Virus record (IMG/VR): IMGVR_UViG_3300036770_005874
Location: 1 to 64,000 of that record
Direction: 5' to 3' (one strand)
DNA from: a virus
DNA: 64,000 nucleotides
Part shown: positions 9,209-19,239 of the stretch, piece by piece
Numbering within the stretch: position 1 is the first letter of the stretch
How the letters are laid out: each line of letters starts with the position of its first letter
The notes under the pieces: model-generated
Told to the model about the DNA's origin: nothing
Seen by the model: the letters and a program-made list of their open reading frames with translations, nothing else
Databases searched by the model: none
Translations under genes and position numbers: made by a program

Positions 9209-10930
9209 CTACGCGACGGCCTGGCTGACCTGCACGCTCTGGATGTGAGCGATCAGGGCAGCGCAGATGCGCGGGAAGTCGTTGGCGCGGTAGAGCTTGG
9301 CTGCGCGCTCCTGCTCGACCGGGTCGAAGCCCAGCGAGGATAGGAAGTCTGCGGTCAGCGTGAAGCCGAGGCGGGTAGTGATGTCGCCCAGCTTGATGCG
9401 CTGGCCGTTGTCGGCTGCCAACTGGGTGATCGGCGTCACCGCGGCGGTGGCGACTGGTGCAGCTGCAGGGGCAGGGGTGGCCTCGATCGCCTCGGCCGTT
9501 GCGACCGGCTCCGGCGATTGGATCTGCTCGACCTGCTGGGGTGCCGGCGTCGGCTCCACTGCAGCTGCAGCCGCCTGCTGCTGAGCCAGGCGCTCCTGCT
9601 CGGCTTCAGCTTCACGCTCGGCCTGCTCGGCGGCCTGCCTGGTGCGTTCCTCCTCGGCCTGTTGGTGCTCGTTGATGCGGACCTTGATCAGCGCCACCAG
9701 GTCGTCGTTGGCCTTGAGCACAAGGTCCTGGGCATCGTGGAACAGGAACGCATGACCCCGGGCCAGCTCGTTCAGGCTGTTGAGGTTGGCGCGGATGCCG
9801 TCAGCGATGCGACTGGCCTCGATCTTGGCGCGGGCCAGCTCGCCGTCGGCGGCTTCCTTCAGGCTGGAAACCGCCTTCTTGCCCTTGATCACGCCGGCGA
9901 AGTCCGCGGCGATGCGCGGCAGGCGAATTTTGCCGCCCAGCGTGGCGTTGATCTGATCGACATGAGCCTGGAGCGCCTTGGCGGCGTCCATCACGATATC
10001 CTCGCGGATCGATTTCTTGCGGGTCTCTACCAGCTTGCTCAGTTCCAGGCGCTTGGCGCGGGCCTGCTCGGCAATCTGATCGATGGTGCGGAACAGCTCG
10101 TCGATGCTGGCCGTCTGGCTCAAGGCATGGCGCTTGGCTGCTTCCAGGCGATCCTCGACGTCCTCCTTCAACCACTTCACTGTCTTGTCGGCGTCGGCGA
10201 AGTCCTGGTCATCCTGCAGATCGGTCTTGATGGAGCCGATCACGCCGAAGGCGTGCTGCTTGAAGGCGTCCAGGTTGCTGGCGGTCACCATCCCGGTAAC
10301 TTCGATACGCAGCGCGGGCAGGGCATCGGGTGCAGAACCTACAACCTCGACCTTGGCCGACTGCGGCACGAACTCAGCCAGGTCCTGCTCGAACTGCTTC
10401 CAGCCGGCCACCAGCTGCTCGGCGCGGCCGGGCACCGGGCGGTACTCCATGTGCTCGAAGTTCTCGCGGGTGCCGTCGGAGCAGACGAAGATCACGCGCT
10501 CGGCGCCGCTGACCAGCAGCTGCTGCTCCAGCTGCCAGTAGTAGTGCGGTTCCAGCTCACCGGCGCGTACCTGGGCAGCGAGGTTCTGGCCCCACAGCTT
10601 GTGCTCGAACAGGGTCTCGCCGAGCATCGTCGCGCCGTCCATGCTGGCCAGCAGGTTGCCCTCGGTTCCAACGATGGGGAAGAGCTCCTCGCCGATCAAC
10701 TCCTCGACCAGCGGTCGGGCCATGGCCTCCGTCGCATGGCCTTGGTCGAAGAGGCGCTGCACGGCGCCGTCGACCTCCGGCACGATGCCGGTCTTCTTCT
10801 GGGTCAGAAGCTCGTTGCGGGTCTGGTACTTCGAGACGCCCATCATTGCGGGTGCCTCGGAGGCGGTGAAGTAGTTGGCGCGGAGGGAATGCCACTCGGG
10901 GCTGCCCTGCAGGACGTTATGCACTTGCAT
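9209..10930 (-). CDS. YqaJ-type recombination exonuclease with long C-terminal extension
   Basis: A 573-residue protein. The first ~210 residues are a YqaJ/lambda-Exo type nuclease: GSPEWHSLRANYFTASEAPA, then DGATML, FEHKLW and YYWQLEQQLL with the acidic and Lys residues of the active site. A long helical region follows (about 240-430), then an Ala/Pro/Gln-rich linker and a small C-terminal domain. Typical family members have about 200-330 residues, so the extension is unusual. With RecT it forms a two-component recombinase; its start overlaps the recT end by 14 bases. Confidence 0.85.
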   Translation of the reverse strand: MQVHNVLQGSPEWHSLRANYFTASEAPAMMGVSKYQTRNELLTQKKTGIVPEVDGAVQRLFDQGHATEAMARPLVEELIGEELFPIVGTEGNLLASMDGATMLGETLFEHKLWGQNLAAQVRAGELEPHYYWQLEQQLLVSGAERVIFVCSDGTRENFEHMEYRPVPGRAEQLVAGWKQFEQDLAEFVPQSAKVEVVGSAPDALPALRIEVTGMVTASNLDAFKQHAFGVIGSIKTDLQDDQDFADADKTVKWLKEDVEDRLEAAKRHALSQTASIDELFRTIDQIAEQARAKRLELSKLVETRKKSIREDIVMDAAKALQAHVDQINATLGGKIRLPRIAADFAGVIKGKKAVSSLKEAADGELARAKIEASRIADGIRANLNSLNELARGHAFLFHDAQDLVLKANDDLVALIKVRINEHQQAEEERTRQAAEQAEREAEAEQERLAQQQAAAAAVEPTPAPQQVEQIQSPEPVATAEAIEATPAPAAAPVATAAVTPITQLAADNGQRIKLGDITTRLGFTLTADFLSSLGFDPVEQERAAKLYRANDFPRICAALIAHIQSVQVSQAVA

Positions 10931-11825
10931 CGGTGGCCTCTCCTTCGATAGGCGCGAGCGCGCGGATCTTGTCCTTCTGCTCGTCGCTGAGGGTGTACTT
11001 GCTGCTGATCGTGTTGATCAGGTGGTCGGGGCTGGTCTTCTTCGCCGCGATTCGCTCGCGCCACTGCTCGCTGCTGGCGTCCAGCTGGGCGTCTGGGTAG
11101 GGCGGTAGCTCCTGTGGAGCTGCGGCGGCCGGCGGCGGGGTGATGTCGCGCATCACTGGCGCTTCATCCAGCTCGTCGGGGGTGTAGACGCCGAGGATCA
11201 CATCGGGGCAGTACAGGCGGGACCAGCGTTTGGTCGCCAAGTACGCCAGCTGCTGTTTCGGGTCGTCTGCCCAGAGCGTGGAATTGCGGGTACGCGCCTG
11301 GATCAGCAGCAGCTCGAGCACGCGGGGCTCGGTTTCGCCCTTGAGGGTGGCCCATACCCGAACACCAAGGCCTTGCTCGTCCTGCATGGTCCAGTTGGGA
11401 ACTCGGTACTTCTTCTTCTCACCAGTATCCTCGTCGACCTTGGACTTGCTCTCGCCCTCGCGGAATTTACCGATGACCTTGCTCCAGTCGCCGAACCACT
11501 CGAAGTGCAGGCGGTCCTTGGTCGGCGCCAGCGCGGTGATCACCGCATTGACCAGCTGCGCCTCGTAACCCAGCGTGCCGTTGACGACGTGCGTTTTCTG
11601 GGCAACGGCGAACGGGTTCATCTTCCATTGCATCGACTGCATGATCACCGCCATGCAGTCCGCTGGGTTCTTCTGAAGGTGCTTCGGTACCGTGGCGATG
11701 CCCCCGGACATTACCTTGGCTACCTCCATGATTTGCTGGAAGGCCTGGCCATCCAGCACTAGGGCGCTGGTCATGGTGTTCGGCGTGGCAACCGATGCCA
11801 GCGTGCTCTCGACAGGTGCATTCAT
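10917..11825 (-). CDS. recT: RecT/Bet-type single-strand annealing protein
   Basis: A 302-residue protein of the RecT family: IATVPKHLQKNPADCMAVIM, MNPFAVAQKTHVVNGTLGYE and QLAYLATKRWSRLYCPDVIL are characteristic segments. It anneals complementary single strands produced by the partner exonuclease encoded immediately downstream. Residues 225-245 are Pro/Ala-rich and the C-terminus is a small helical domain. It is coupled to the preceding 69-residue gene by an ATGA overlap. Confidence 0.9.
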   Translation of the reverse strand: MNAPVESTLASVATPNTMTSALVLDGQAFQQIMEVAKVMSGGIATVPKHLQKNPADCMAVIMQSMQWKMNPFAVAQKTHVVNGTLGYEAQLVNAVITALAPTKDRLHFEWFGDWSKVIGKFREGESKSKVDEDTGEKKKYRVPNWTMQDEQGLGVRVWATLKGETEPRVLELLLIQARTRNSTLWADDPKQQLAYLATKRWSRLYCPDVILGVYTPDELDEAPVMRDITPPPAAAAPQELPPYPDAQLDASSEQWRERIAAKKTSPDHLINTISSKYTLSDEQKDKIRALAPIEGEATDASA

Positions 11826-12970: not shown

Positions 12971-13046
12971 TGGAGCCGGCAGCAGGGTTCGAACCCGCGA
13001 CATCCTGATTACAGGTCAGGCGCTCTACCAACTGAGTTATGCCGGC
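12971..13046 (-). tRNA. Phage tRNA-Thr (UGU) with C33
   Basis: A complete 76-base cloverleaf on the reverse strand: acceptor stem GCCGGCA/TGCCGGC, anticodon stem CCTGA/TCAGG, loop CCTGTAA giving anticodon TGT, T-arm GCGGG TTCGAAC CCTGC, discriminator T and encoded CCA. Two departures from the norm are C instead of U at position 33 and an A-C mismatch at the D-stem base (10-25). It would read ACA, a rare codon in GC-rich Pseudomonas. It lies in the early left operon between csrA and the 119-residue gene. Confidence 0.85.
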
Positions 13047-13105
13047 AAAAAGGCCCCGGTGTGAGCGGGGCAAGTGCTGATGAAAGAGTTGATGCGGGGA
13101 ACGCA

Positions 13106-13169
13106 TCGGAGAGCGGCCTGGCCAGCGGCTGGACACCCATGCCGCACCGCCAGCCTGGCCGCTCTCCGA
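13106..13169 (-). repeat. Long inverted repeat between csrA and tRNA-Thr
   Basis: TCGGAGAGCGGCC at 13106-13118 and its exact complement at 13157-13169; an inner six-base stem (13127-13132 with 13150-13155) extends the hairpin. In leftward RNA it would form a strong stem-loop just upstream of the tRNA. It has no T run, so processing or stability is more likely than termination. Confidence 0.6.
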
Positions 13170-13273
13170 TACGCCCTGGTGGGTGATCGGGGCCGAATGC
13201 CGGGGTGGCCAACCCCTTGCAGGCCGGGCTGCTCCAGCTGCCCGGGCGGCGACCCCGAACCGACTCGGCGGGG

Positions 13274-13465
13274 TCAGTTGGCGGCAGGCTGCTGCCCGCC
13301 GCTTTCCTTCTGGATGCGCTGGTAGATCTCTTCACGGTGCACGGCCACGTCCTTCGGCGCATTGACGCCGACCTTGACCTGGTTGCCGTTGACTCCGGCG
13401 ATCGTCACGGTGATGTCGTTACCGATGTAGAGGGTTTCGCCAATGCGGCGGGTGAGTATCAGCAT
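13274..13465 (-). CDS. csrA: CsrA/RsmA-family RNA-binding regulator
   Basis: A 63-residue protein with the canonical CsrA sequence: [20 protein letters not shown], then [20 protein letters not shown] and IYQRIQKE. Leu4 and Arg44-type RNA-contact residues appear present. CsrA dimers bind GGA motifs in mRNA leaders to control translation and stability. The ribosome site reads AAGGAGAAGGACC and itself contains two GGA motifs, so self-regulation is plausible. As the first coding gene of the leftward early operon, it is placed to alter host or phage translation early. Confidence 0.93.
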
Positions 13466-13734
13466 GGTCCTTCTCCTTGGGTGGTTGGCATCCCAGAGCA
13501 CCCGGTTGCCCAGGTGCTCCAGTGATGCTTCCCATCGCGATCCGCTACTGGCGTCGATCGCGAAGGTGACTCTGATGTCGCAGTCATCGCCCCGAAGCGC
13601 CGGTTCCCCAAACGCTGCAGCGCAATGCCTGCGTGTGCACACCGGCTTACCGAGGTCGATACAGCGACGATCAGGGAGGCTCCTGCCTATAACCGTGCTA
13701 ACGACCTTTCCCGGCCGGCGTGCGTGAGATGTGT

Positions 13735-13768
13735 TGTTAAAGAGCGAGCCCGCTTTCGCAGGCTTGCT
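13735..13768 (-). promoter_or_regulatory. boxA with upstream hairpin (nut/rrn-like antitermination leader)
   Basis: In leftward RNA a stem-loop (13768-13743, 11 bp with one mismatch and one G-U, GAAA tetraloop) is followed by GCTCTTTAACA (13745-13735), identical to the core of the bacterial rRNA boxA. It lies about 35-70 bases after the predicted PL start. The hairpin-then-boxA order matches rRNA leaders, which bind NusB/NusE, more closely than lambda nut sites. A 12-codon frame (13775-13737) ends within boxA but lacks a ribosome site. Confidence 0.65.
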
Positions 13769-13791
13769 TGGTCATTCGGCGAGGTTCGCGA

Positions 13792-13851
13792 ATAACTCAA
13801 GTTATGGGCAATAATAACCAGGGTTCTGGCTTTGTCAATAACTAAAGTTAT
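13792..13851 (-). promoter_or_regulatory. PL promoter with three operators (OL)
   Basis: Three 14-base sites of consensus ATAACNNNNGTTAT: 13792-13805 (ATAACTCAAGTTAT), 13814-13827 (ATAACCAGGGTTCT) and 13838-13851 (ATAACTAAAGTTAT), spaced 22 and 24 bases. A leftward promoter overlaps them: TTGACA at 13838-13833, TATTAT at 13816-13811, spacer 16. Bound repressor would cover both boxes. This should drive csrA, tRNA-Thr and the recombination genes. Confidence 0.75.
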
Positions 13852-13923: not shown

Positions 13924-14238
13924 ATGGCCAAGCAGAAAGCGCAACAGCAACCCCGTGAACTGACCGCCCTGGAGAAGCTGGGGCTACGGGTGAGCGCGAT
14001 GATCAACTCGCCGAAGGCGCAGCTGGACAGGCAGGTGACGATTCACCGGATGGACACTGACCCGGACGAGGCCTGGCAGGCGGTGCTGGAGTTGCTGCTG
14101 GAGGAGGATGCGCTGGAGGTGACGTTGAACGACGACGGTTCGGTGACGCTGAGGTGGGCGCTGGCCGGGGAGGGTGACCAGGTGGTGGAGGAGGGGGAGC
14201 TGGTGGCGGTGGAGGGGGAGAATTCGATTGTGGAATGA
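13924..14238 (+). CDS. DUF1654 protein under LexA control
   Basis: A 104-residue protein with the DUF1654 pattern: LEKLGLRVSAMINSPKAQLD, VTIHRMDTDPDEAWQAVLEL and DGSVTLRW. This Pseudomonas/phage family has no settled biochemical role. Start at the ATG at 13924 after AAGGAGG. A LexA box precedes it and a terminator follows, so it is a one-gene SOS unit beside PL. A role in induction, for example counteracting the repressor, is attractive but only inferred. Confidence 0.8.
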   Translation: MAKQKAQQQPRELTALEKLGLRVSAMINSPKAQLDRQVTIHRMDTDPDEAWQAVLELLLEEDALEVTLNDDGSVTLRWALAGEGDQVVEEGELVAVEGENSIVE

Positions 14239-14269: not shown

Positions 14270-14980
14270 TTACTCGCTCGGAGGGAGGCCGCATTCGCCT
14301 CGCCACTCATTGATCATGTCGTACCGGACCATGGCCTCTTCGCCCATTTCAGTTCGGAATGCTGCGAGCTTTTCCTCGTAGCAGGTTTCGCCCGATTCGA
14401 CCTGAACGACTTGATCTGAAACAAGCGGTTCATCCGCAGGTTCGGTGCTGGGGATCACTGGTGCAGGCTCAGCTACTGGCAGGGGCTTGGGCTTGCCTGG
14501 TCTATCCTCCGCAATCTCAAGCAGCTCTTCCTGGGCTTCCTCTCCTGCCTCTATAAGGTCGTCGATCTCCATCCCGTCGAGGCGATCTCTCAGCTCGGCC
14601 TTAATTCTGCTGATCTGCCACATGCTCGAGAACATGCTGTCCGGCACCTTGCCGTTTGGCGTGAACATCGCTCGGATTTGATCCCCGTCCACGCTCTCAT
14701 CTGCCTCGACGTGCGCAAGCATTGCAATGGATCCTAGAGCGAGGTTGATCTGCAGAATCTGGGTGGGGTAGGTGCGCGACATTTCATCAATGCTAACCGC
14801 CATAGCCTGCTCGCTTGAGCCATCCAGCTCGGGGTCGCTTTTGAAGATTGTGATAGGCCAGGTGATCCCAACTCCTAGGTTGTAGAAGAAGCTCCTGTGC
14901 TGGTAAGGACCAAAGAAGTAGCCCCACGCTCCGAAAATCAGGGATATGACCAAGTACCCGCCAATCAGTTTGGCCTTCAT
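14270..14980 (-). CDS. Membrane-anchored protein near cI
   Basis: A 236-residue protein with one N-terminal hydrophobic segment (about 5-26), an Asp/Glu-rich helical middle (ELRDRLDGMEIDDLIEAGEE) and a Pro-rich stretch (about 160-190) before a small C-terminal domain with two cysteines. Probably anchored in the inner membrane with the rest in the periplasm. It lies on the repressor side of the immunity region, where lysogeny genes such as exclusion functions are commonly found. No family recognised. Confidence 0.6.
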   Translation of the reverse strand: MKAKLIGGYLVISLIFGAWGYFFGPYQHRSFFYNLGVGITWPITIFKSDPELDGSSEQAMAVSIDEMSRTYPTQILQINLALGSIAMLAHVEADESVDGDQIRAMFTPNGKVPDSMFSSMWQISRIKAELRDRLDGMEIDDLIEAGEEAQEELLEIAEDRPGKPKPLPVAEPAPVIPSTEPADEPLVSDQVVQVESGETCYEEKLAAFRTEMGEEAMVRYDMINEWRGECGLPPSE

Positions 14981-15167
14981 GTAACTGCTCCATGCTTCTG
15001 ATTATTTATGCTGTCCTGTAGGTCAGCTCTGCCAGTGTAATGGCTTTTTGCCTCCCGGTCCTGAGGGCGTGGTTTGACCTACCTTGGGAAGGGAATAGTT
15101 CTGGATCTCGCCTTTCGGGAGTCATTGCGGCAGGATCGCAGGACACCATGGATGACAGGAGAAGCAC

Positions 15168-15521
15168 ATGGAAATCAACCTGACTGCGATCGTGCGCAAC
15201 CTTCGCTATTACGGACCGCCAGCTGCTCTGGCTGTTGGCGGCCTCATCGTCGGCTTTCTTGCTGCACCTGGTGAAGCGACAACAGGGTTTGCATCAATCC
15301 TTCTGCCCATCCAGAAAGCGGTCCATTTCGCCTCCCTTGCTGCGACCTTGGCCGGCTTGATCTGGTTCGCGCATTGCGTCTGGATCGAGTGGCGGCTGGA
15401 GCGGGGCGAGTATGAGGGCGGATGCATCCAGTGCGGAGGCCCGATGCGTCACCTGGATGGGCGTTATGGGACTTACAGCAAGTGCAAGATGTGCGGGGCG
15501 AAGCGGGAAGGGTGGCACTGA
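15168..15521 (+). CDS. Two-span membrane protein with zinc ribbon
   Basis: A 117-residue protein with two hydrophobic segments (about 18-34 and 50-70) and a C-terminal CIQCGG ... CKMCGAKRE pair of CxxC motifs that should bind zinc on the cytosolic side. It is single-gene, flanked by a terminator downstream and convergent with the protease-like gene. Function unknown; location suggests expression in the lysogen. Confidence 0.6.
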   Translation: MEINLTAIVRNLRYYGPPAALAVGGLIVGFLAAPGEATTGFASILLPIQKAVHFASLAATLAGLIWFAHCVWIEWRLERGEYEGGCIQCGGPMRHLDGRYGTYSKCKMCGAKREGWH

Positions 15522-15531
15522 GATTCAAATC

Positions 15532-15557
15532 AAAAGCCCCGCTACTGCGGGGCTTTT
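15532..15557. terminator. Bidirectional terminator
   Basis: AAAAGCCCCGC, loop TACT, GCGGGGCTTTT: a perfect 11-base stem flanked by A and T runs, serving the rightward membrane gene and the leftward protease-like gene. Confidence 0.85.
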
Positions 15558-15618
15558 GGATTGCTAGATCTTCGTCGATAAGGTGTGAGACGGCGCACGC
15601 TGTGGGTTCACCATCGCA

Positions 15619-16551
15619 TCAGCCAGCATCTGCCAGCTTTCGCTCGCCTTTTTCATGCTCTCCGCCAGCTCCTTCGGCAGCTGGTAGCTCTGGATCGGCT
15701 GCTGGGATTGCTTCGGGGATTGGGTTTGCATGGGGCTGAACCTCGATCTCTTGAGAGTTCCAATTGTAAATAAACTCATCGCCCAACTGGGGCAGCAGAG
15801 TATACAGATTCTCCAACAGCGCGAGCTCACGTTCGTCAGGTGCTCGCACGTTGGAAAACAAAGACGTAGCTTCCTTCCTATCAATCACAAAGCTATGCGC
15901 TGGATAGCCCGTAATCAAGCTGAGTAGGGCATTGGCTTTTAGGTTCCTGCTATCTGCATCTAGGCGCTTTCCGTACTCGAATCCGACAGCGTTGGCTCGG
16001 AAAATTTCTCCCAGCCTTACTGGGTCAATCTGACCAAAAACTGGCTGGAAGACGCTTCCCGCGAGCTTCGCCGAAATATCCGCAGCCATTTTGGTGGATA
16101 CGCCTGTACGAGCTCGTGTGCTGTACATGAATTCCTCAAACGCTGCGTAGGTCTGCTTCCTAAGGAGCTCAAGACCTTGCTGAATATCCATTCCCGAAGA
16201 GCGCTCCATTAACTCGTCCGGCTTGGTCATCTGGATATCGAGAGGACCCAACTCCCCTCGATCTGCAACGATCAGCTCATGTGCACCAATGGCAATGAGC
16301 GTGCCAGCGGACTTGCAAATATCTGGAACGAGGAGCTTGAAATCACCGTAATGGTGCCTAAGGCAGCGTGCAATTCGGTATCCCGCATGAGGGTCACCGC
16401 CGTGGGTAATGAGGATGAGGTAGGCCGAATTACTCAGCTTCCGATTCTGGCAAATATTTGTGATGTGCTCATATCCACGGCGAGAGATATCACCCAGATA
16501 GAGAATTATGTCTTCTTCGAAATTATTGAAGCGTTTTATCAGCTGTGGCAT
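15619..16551 (-). CDS. SDH/ClpP-fold serine proteinase-like protein
   Basis: A 310-residue protein resembling the serine dehydrogenase proteinase (SDH) family with a ClpP/crotonase fold. Visible are ITHGGDPHAGYRIARCLR (oxyanion-type glycines), CKSAGTLIAIGAHELIV with the candidate nucleophile Ser, and GELGPLDIQ, typical of SppA/SDH proteins. The C-terminal 40 residues are Pro/Ala/Glu-rich and probably disordered. Ribosome site GGGAGG precedes the ATG at 16551. AT-richer than the phage core and placed next to cI, it is a good candidate for a lysogen-expressed defence or exclusion protein; this is inference. Confidence 0.65.
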   Translation of the reverse strand: MPQLIKRFNNFEEDIILYLGDISRRGYEHITNICQNRKLSNSAYLILITHGGDPHAGYRIARCLRHHYGDFKLLVPDICKSAGTLIAIGAHELIVADRGELGPLDIQMTKPDELMERSSGMDIQQGLELLRKQTYAAFEEFMYSTRARTGVSTKMAADISAKLAGSVFQPVFGQIDPVRLGEIFRANAVGFEYGKRLDADSRNLKANALLSLITGYPAHSFVIDRKEATSLFSNVRAPDERELALLENLYTLLPQLGDEFIYNWNSQEIEVQPHANPIPEAIPAADPELPAAEGAGGEHEKGERKLADAG

Positions 16552-18249: not shown

Positions 18250-19239
18250 ATGCAATTCACGATCACCGTCAACCAGGTGAAGTCGCTCGAATGGGGGCTG
18301 AATGCGCAGCAGGCGCTGCTGTTCGCGTTCGTCTACGAGTGCCCGAGCTGGGCGAAGCTCACCCGCACGGTCGATGGTGACTTCTACGCCCTGAGCAAGG
18401 CGAAGGTCATCGAGGAGCTGCCGCTGCTGACTGATAAGCCAGACACCGTATACCGCCTGCTCAAGAGCCTGGCAGATGCCGGCGTCATCGAGCTGTCGAG
18501 CACGAACAGCATCACGCTGGTGCGCCTGACGAAGAAGGGGCGGCAGTGGAACCGGAAGGGCGATGGGTCGGAAATTTATCCGACCCAGAACGCCGCTCAA
18601 CAGGTCGGAAAAAAAACCGATCAGGAGCCGGGTGGGTCGGAAAAAAATCCGAGCCGGGTCGGAAAAAAATCCGGGCTGGGTCGGAAAAAAATCCGAGATG
18701 GGTCGGAAAAAAATCCGACAAATCAGGATACCAGTAATCAGGGTACCAATCAGGATACCAGTCAGATCTCTGCGCCGGAGGCTTCGCCACCAGCGCCCCT
18801 CGTTCTCGTTGGCGACGCCGAACAGCCTCGCTGCGAAATCCCCGATGACATGCCGGGACCTCGCGACCCGAAGTGCACGACGTACCGCACCTGGGCCAAT
18901 TACGCGATTGCCTACCACAAGACCTACGGCACCTGGCCTGTGTGGAACAGGACGGTCGGTGCCCAGATCGCCAAGTTGGTTGAGCGCCTTGGCCAGCAGG
19001 ATGCCCCGAAGGTGGCCGCGTTCTTCGTGCTGCGGGTCAAGTCGGTTGAGGCGAACAAGAAAACCCACGCTGTCGGCCTGCTGCTGCAGAACGCCGAGAG
19101 CTACCACACGCAGTGGAAGACCCTGAACCCCGTCACCAACATCGCCGCCCGCCAGGCCGAGAGCACTCAGCAGAACCTGAGTGAGATGGAGCTGGCGCTG
19201 GAGGAGCAACGTATGCGGAGGCAAGCCAATGCTCAGTGA
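18250..19239 (+). CDS. Replication initiator (lambda O-like) carrying iterons
   Basis: A 329-residue protein. The N-terminal domain (about 1-100) is a winged helix (FVYECPSWAKL, DTVYRLLKSLADAGVIELSS) as in phage replication proteins. The middle (about 105-175) is low-complexity and repetitive (GSEKNPSRVGKKSGLGRKKI), because the DNA here is a run of iterons. The C-terminal part (RTWANYAIAYHKTYGTWPVW) probably contacts the helicase loader. As in lambda O, the origin lies inside the gene. It overlaps the next gene by 11 bases. Confidence 0.8.
   Translation: MQFTITVNQVKSLEWGLNAQQALLFAFVYECPSWAKLTRTVDGDFYALSKAKVIEELPLLTDKPDTVYRLLKSLADAGVIELSSTNSITLVRLTKKGRQWNRKGDGSEIYPTQNAAQQVGKKTDQEPGGSEKNPSRVGKKSGLGRKKIRDGSEKNPTNQDTSNQGTNQDTSQISAPEASPPAPLVLVGDAEQPRCEIPDDMPGPRDPKCTTYRTWANYAIAYHKTYGTWPVWNRTVGAQIAKLVERLGQQDAPKVAAFFVLRVKSVEANKKTHAVGLLLQNAESYHTQWKTLNPVTNIAARQAESTQQNLSEMELALEEQRMRRQANAQ
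18565..18718. repeat. Iteron array, probable replication origin
   Basis: Six copies of GGGTCGGAAAAAAATCCGA-like units start at 18565, 18602, 18634, 18656, 18678 and 18700; the last four are at an exact 22-base period. Each is itself an inverted repeat (TCGGA/TCCGA) around an A tract. ATCAGGATACCAGT-like repeats follow at about 18721-18765. The array lies inside the O-like gene. Confidence 0.8.

Follow-up and report, generated by a model that had tools for sequence, protein, structure and literature searches.

The window, the whole 64,000-nucleotide stretch analysed here, belongs to a 69,072-base record whose first 643 bases (tRNA-Arg, -His and -Leu) are 76–77% identical to a single chromosomal site in five Pseudomonas genomes; because of this match we read the contig as a prophage in a Pseudomonas-like host, adjoining the tRNA-Leu. 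Leftward from the early promoter PL lie a CsrA-like gene, a terminator-like hairpin, tRNA-Thr, RecT, RecE and a DnaQ-like exonuclease, together with many small genes of no known function; on the other side are DUF1654, a serine protease-like gene, CI, Cro, CII-like and O-like genes, NinB and NinG (Table 1). Between DUF1654 and CI (14270–16551), a protein without family match and the gene of a ClpP-like SDH-type serine protease resemble inserted accessory genes, and the O-like replication gene carries, as judged by eye, repeated motifs GRKKIR/GSEKNP (18500–18800), which may be origin iterons within the gene, as in lambda O. Between csrA and tRNA-Thr, a spacer with z −4.6 holds a very long near-perfect hairpin of 17 + 10 bp (13101–13173, minus strand). 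The ribosome-binding site of csrA, read in the sequence as AAGGAGAA, contains GGA motifs (AAGGAGAAGGAC, 13466–13483), which a CsrA protein might bind, controlling its own gene.

Table 1. Features of the leftward early leader and its surroundings (positions in the window)
Feature	Positions	Strand	Evidence or remark
RecE-like exonuclease, downstream in leftward operon	9209..10930	minus	phrog_7655, E 3.5e-215
RecT-like annealing protein, downstream in leftward operon	10917..11825	minus	phrog_561, E 1.3e-110
Phage tRNA-Thr (TGT), leftward operon, directly 3′ of terminator-like hairpin	12971..13046	minus	
Intrinsic-terminator-like hairpin between csrA and tRNA-Thr	13053..13071	minus	count found not above shuffles
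csrA, CsrA-like regulator, 63 aa, first operon gene	13274..13465	minus	PF02599, E 1.2e-24
Untranslated leader RNA, about 339 nt, to csrA start codon (by our reading)	13466..13804	minus	start point inferred from −10 box
Terminal hairpin GCATCACTG...GGGATGC, 5′ of ribosome-binding site	13488..13528	minus	covariance model
Pre-terminal hairpin GCGATC-GACGCCAGTAGCG-GATCGC	13526..13561 (limits approximate)	minus	covariation
Middle domain, type of its own, long paired arms	13567..13734	minus	z −4.2
boxA GCTCTTTAACA, identical to rRNA boxA and to Pseudomonas rrn leader boxA	13735..13745	minus	no mismatch
Hairpin core AGCCTGC-GAAA-GCGGGCT, directly 5′ of boxA	13747..13764	minus	z −2.9
Operator ATAACTCAAGTTAT, at start point	13792..13805	not assigned	
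Leftward early promoter (PL), TTGACA-16-TATTAT	13811..13838	minus	11/12 consensus positions
Operator ATAACTAAAGTTAT, exact palindrome adjoining −35 box	13838..13851	not assigned	
Divergent DUF1654 gene, other side of PL	13924..14238	plus	PF07867, E 1.2e-21

PL is the sole promoter found in the 1.9 kb scanned, where shuffles lead one to expect 0.2. The palindrome ATAACTNNAGTTAT stands on both sides of it (13792 and 13838) and recurs at PR (17531) in a copy that has one mismatch; given these three close operator copies over PL and PR, both promoters are probably under the same repressor. By our reading the RNA from 13804 to 13466 is untranslated. It is predicted to fold stably (13465–13803, MFE z −8.2, with 0 of 100 shuffles equally stable), and a comparison of the leader with Rfam returned no family match.

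boxA is a short signal by which bacteria keep their ribosomal RNA genes transcribed. About 60 nt downstream of PL, on the 3′ side of a GAAA hairpin, the minus strand from 13745 to 13735 reads exactly GCTCTTTAACA, which bears out the original prediction of an element identical to the rRNA boxA core; both stem and boxA lie 3′ of the −35 and −10 boxes of PL (13838–13811), that is, in the PL transcript, as had been proposed. Base composition gives an expectation of about 0.01–0.03 exact copies of the 11-mer by chance in 64 kb on both strands. The one exact copy in the whole record is that of PL, so the claim that no boxA follows PR also held when the record was searched for the exact 11-mer. The window’s boxA fits the consensus GYTCTTTAANA, derived from functional boxA sites by Baniulyte et al. 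(PMC5725501). From boxA to the csrA ATG there are about 270 nt of untranslated, folded RNA.

The same arrangement is found in rRNA operons: Pseudomonas rrn leaders run from a −10 box through a hairpin to GCTCTTTAACA. When searched for, the pattern GCGAAAGC-N4-8-GCTCTTTAACA matched 87 viral contigs, as against 0 for a control pattern with boxA reversed, so that the recurrence of hairpin plus boxA exceeds chance; the spacing was N = 6 in 75 of the 88 pattern occurrences read (window included). The genome matches were Pseudomonas prophages and, independently, 16S leaders of Oceanimonas, Zobellella, Mangrovitalea, Methylomicrobium and others, at 122–154 nt ahead of the mature 16S where a 16S start was found. 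Since both these 16S leaders and the Pseudomonas rrn leaders show a hairpin and then boxA, the order seen in the phage is indeed that of rRNA leaders, the host’s included, as originally suggested. By eye, GCGAAAGC and boxA also occur apparently ahead of a phage tRNA cluster, another untranslated RNA (locus L012, 1134–1159, minus strand), and in two loci (L025, 10876–11114; L066, 2066–2305) the Rfam Proteo-phage-1 sRNA adjoins two phage tRNAs.

The antitermination site of rRNA operon leaders is boxB-boxA-boxC, with NusA, NusB, NusE, NusG, SuhB and S4, and boxA–Nus antitermination is established for rRNA and for lambdoid nut sites. The rrn complex counteracts both Rho-dependent and intrinsic termination, and E. 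coli SuhB binds to the boxC region (PMC6614801). With the rRNA site the phage leader shares a promoter, a hairpin, an identical boxA and then a long structured untranslated RNA; it differs in being an mRNA leader, in its probably repressor-controlled promoter and in lacking boxC. Looked for within 60 nt 3′ of boxA, the boxC motif GTGTGGG appears in 31 of 34 rRNA leaders; none of the 215 phage leaders has it.

The search of related PL leaders that had been suggested at the outset was productive: the layout of promoter, boxA, structured domain(s), terminal hairpin and first gene is found in about 200 phage loci, mostly of Pseudomonas. Promoters, operators and first genes differ between the loci and the leader parts are kept. 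As to synteny, among 215 related loci DUF1654 is the leader’s neighbour in 116 and CI is upstream on the same strand in 97, and CsrA, RecT or RecE, where found, are downstream of the leader. Exact boxA is single in 214 of the 215 loci, most of which represent only part of a phage. The singleness of boxA bears on the idea that an abundant leader RNA titrates NusB-S10 or SuhB off the rRNA genes during phage growth. While a strong promoter and an exact rRNA boxA would suit such a sponge, each transcript offers a single boxA, and the position at the operon’s 5′ end and the variable domains are left unexplained; we regard it as very improbable.

To gauge the constraint on boxA we used 135 loci picked solely by 25 bases of one domain type (type 0). 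Exact boxA is present in 111 of them, and 15 have one or two mismatches. The variants GCTCTTTAAAA, GTTCTTTAACA, GTTCTTTAAAA and GCTCTTTAATA fit GYTCTTTAANA, and among the 15 mismatched loci ACTCTTTAACA and GCTCTTTAACC alone fall outside it; variation thus appears almost confined to positions where the functional consensus permits it. In eight loci a type-1 piece stands ahead of the type-0 domain; seven of them have GCTCTTTCACA 101 nt upstream, and the eighth has GCTCTTTACACA. In a second sample, selected solely by the terminal hairpin, exact boxA is present in 54 of 111 loci; in many of the remainder the hairpin precedes an internal gene, the contig is cut, or the leader has a shortened boxA, GCTCTTTAG. 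Exact boxA is absent in F116, H66, E220, phi297, R656, PotUPM1 and LPPA33; the PACL phage has GCTCTTTAAAA and PP9W has GCTCTTTCACA. Another type of leader domain follows the shortened GCTCTTTAG in L189, L202, L221, L226 and L394, and the same domain occurs in L216, L217 and L397, where we saw no boxA. Hairpin-boxA leaders also exist outside the main set of types (L116, L015, L094, L030, L083, L024, L033 and L052): one lies in a Caballeronia genome (L116, which L015 and L094 resemble), and others have TTGAC-type promoters.

Could boxA be a relic that recombination brought in from a host rrn leader and that now has no role? The identical 11-mer in host rrn leaders fits such an origin. The flanking sequence, however, is not rRNA, and boxA is kept as hairpin and domains diverge, its changes falling almost entirely at permitted positions. 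This conservation argues strongly against a relic, a reading to which we attach almost no weight.

The hairpin itself fared differently. Its core pairs 13764–13758 with 13753–13747 around the GAAA loop (7 bp), three further outer pairs draw on the first three bases of boxA, and the z of −2.9 was computed on 66 nt around boxA. In relatives a hairpin occupies the same position with variable sequence and loops of many kinds; across the family one is predicted 5′ of boxA in 78% of cases versus 63% in shuffles. The hairpin is poorly conserved and not constrained comparably to boxA, and the emphasis originally placed on the GAAA stem is not borne out. We also considered the GAAA tetraloop as a recognition loop resembling lambda boxB and rejected it, as loci picked without GAAA show many other loops.

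What the original prediction missed is the main feature of the locus: behind boxA comes a long, structured leader RNA. In the phage leaders 100–230 nt separate boxA from a TCACT...GGGA hairpin, which the ribosome-binding site follows; these 100–230 nt hold a domain that belongs to one of eight or more unrelated types; in some loci the stretch from boxA to the hairpin is longer, with domains seemingly in tandem. The window’s middle domain has a z of −4.2 versus −1.2 on the opposite strand, and 20 random operon windows average −0.3. By folding energy, the common middle domains (types 0–3) mostly lack a stable-fold signal (z about −0.3 to −1), and the case for them therefore rests on covariation (type 1) and conservation: 21 of the 60 predicted pairs of type 1 show two-sided compensatory changes (15 sequences), and type 0 has a mostly invariant long-range helix, CGCATTGC/GCAATGCG, the nine pairs with two-sided changes in its alignment being chiefly in the terminal hairpin.

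Covariation also supports hairpins at the 3′ end of the leader. Among 40 sequences including the window, the terminal hairpin has 98 cells with two-sided changes and is 95.6% paired, 0 of 500 shuffles scoring as high and slid versions far lower; the window’s copy scores 60.2 bits by the covariance model, of which it is one of the 40 sequences. Window positions 13483–13566, aligned with 11 relatives that share the pre-terminal hairpin, show two-sided changes in 10 pairs and 26 cells, a level that 0 of 500 shuffles reached, and the pre-terminal hairpin itself (helix 1 of alignment A4) has two-sided changes in four of five pairs, window included. As the shuffles keep sequence relatedness, these counts are strong but are not probabilities. 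The terminal-hairpin model (R1) matches 41 of 149 sampled Pseudomonas genomes and none of 274 genomes sampled evenly across the gammaproteobacterial class, and the type-0 domain alone is present in 19 of 299 Pseudomonas genomes. In L209, L228 and L399 the terminal hairpin also stands ahead of internal genes and is therefore a movable 5′-UTR module of its own.

The length of this leader bears on the possibility that boxA represses: a boxA-loaded Nus complex would block translation of the first gene, and Rho would stop transcription until Nus factors become scarce. Repression by boxA is indeed on record for E. coli suhB and a Citrobacter toxin gene, and sites of this kind were searched up to 50 nt from the start codon (PMC5725501). 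Like the phage element, the suhB and CKO_00699 boxA sites lie outside rRNA in gammaproteobacteria; theirs are near the start codon (PMC5725501), whereas that of the window is about 270 nt away, and in relatives the terminal hairpin alone starts mostly 180–230 nt 3′ of boxA. We give repression only a slim chance.

Our preferred reading, for which we have reasonable though not high confidence, is that host NusB-S10, with NusA, NusG and SuhB, loads onto boxA and shields both leader and operon against Rho and some terminators. The leftward early transcript would thus begin by imitating, on a small scale, an rRNA transcription unit. Past the repressor-controlled promoter the RNA would form the hairpin and then expose boxA; host NusB-S10 would bind there, NusA, NusG and probably SuhB would join, and RNA polymerase would take on the termination-resistant form it has on rRNA genes. 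Rho would then not stop it on its way across some 270 nt of untranslated structured leader, the spacer and the tRNA, and it could reach the recombination genes. Perhaps the domains behind boxA, with the terminal hairpin, stand in for the missing boxC in completing the assembly; alternatively they may control translation of the first gene. We observe boxA and its conservation, the rRNA order, the structure of the leader, the synteny and no recognisable phage antiterminator; the binding of NusB-S10, the antitermination and the roles of the domains are inferred.

Several observations favour this host-complex reading, which the original prediction had raised. The hairpin-boxA order and the constraint on boxA agree with it, and in rRNA genes it is untranslated, structured RNA of this sort that boxA antitermination shields. 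The leftward operons of relatives contain sense-strand intrinsic terminators to be passed (63 in sense versus 20 on the opposite strand, 132 loci); where an operon has such a terminator (58 operons), the first is met after a median of 1.2 kb; boxA is single per locus with none on the PR side. Counting against it, boxC is missing throughout the 215 phage leaders, and this part of the likeness to rRNA fails; the hairpin 5′ of boxA is only a little commoner than in shuffles; and F116-type relatives keep a structured leader without boxA, others carrying the altered GCTCTTTCACA or GCTCTTTAG. The leftward leader of F116 (Hollowayvirus) shares the csrA, DUF1654, CI and Cro neighbourhood; it differs in having no boxA and, by eye, another version of the terminal hairpin, missed by the covariance model.

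The original prediction had also allowed for a factor supplied by the phage. Among the window’s leftward and early proteins tested, we found no family match to an N-like or Nus-like gene, N proteins being known to diverge fast; host factors are therefore the likelier agents. A nut-like site, at which an unrecognised N-like phage protein joins Nus factors on boxA and hairpin to build an antitermination complex, would suit the lambdoid layout (CI, Cro, CII-like, NinB, NinG) and a leftward operon rich in uncharacterised small genes, and lambda nut likewise uses boxA in the early-operon leader of a lambdoid-type phage. However, the order in lambda is boxA and then boxB (PMC6614801), whereas here the hairpin precedes boxA with a freely variable loop; there is no site on the PR side, the first genes after the leader vary between loci, and no N-like family was matched. 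We consider a nut-like site unlikely. HK022 put RNA is likewise a structured leader RNA on early phage transcripts; PMC9378689 describes putRNA as acting alone on polymerase, and by that description the present leaders differ, with boxA conserved and the RNA domains variable.

On this evidence the phages probably borrow the host’s ribosomal antitermination machinery instead of coding their own, and, should the host complex be at work here, boxC may have its substitute in the domain behind boxA. More tentatively, and with somewhat less than even confidence, we propose a modular class of phage leader RNA in which interchangeable domains between an rRNA boxA and the terminal hairpin programme the host rRNA antitermination complex without a phage protein or boxC. 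We found no description in Rfam or the literature searched of an rRNA-ordered boxA heading modular structured leaders of Pseudomonas phages, and it may be worth setting up a separate family for this leader RNA. The question addressed is how lambdoid-type Pseudomonas phages without N pass the terminators of their early operons, as noted for P. aeruginosa phage YA3, in which no N was found and terminators lie in the PL operon (PMC7326022); a host rRNA boxA ahead of undescribed covarying RNA domains is a directly testable answer. If the modular proposal is true, an early phage operon would in effect be antiterminated by RNA alone, acting through host Nus factors. The leader would also show that boxA–Nus antitermination, considered a matter of rRNA and lambdoid phages, serves a broad phage group, the terminal hairpin being present in more than a quarter of the sampled Pseudomonas genomes.
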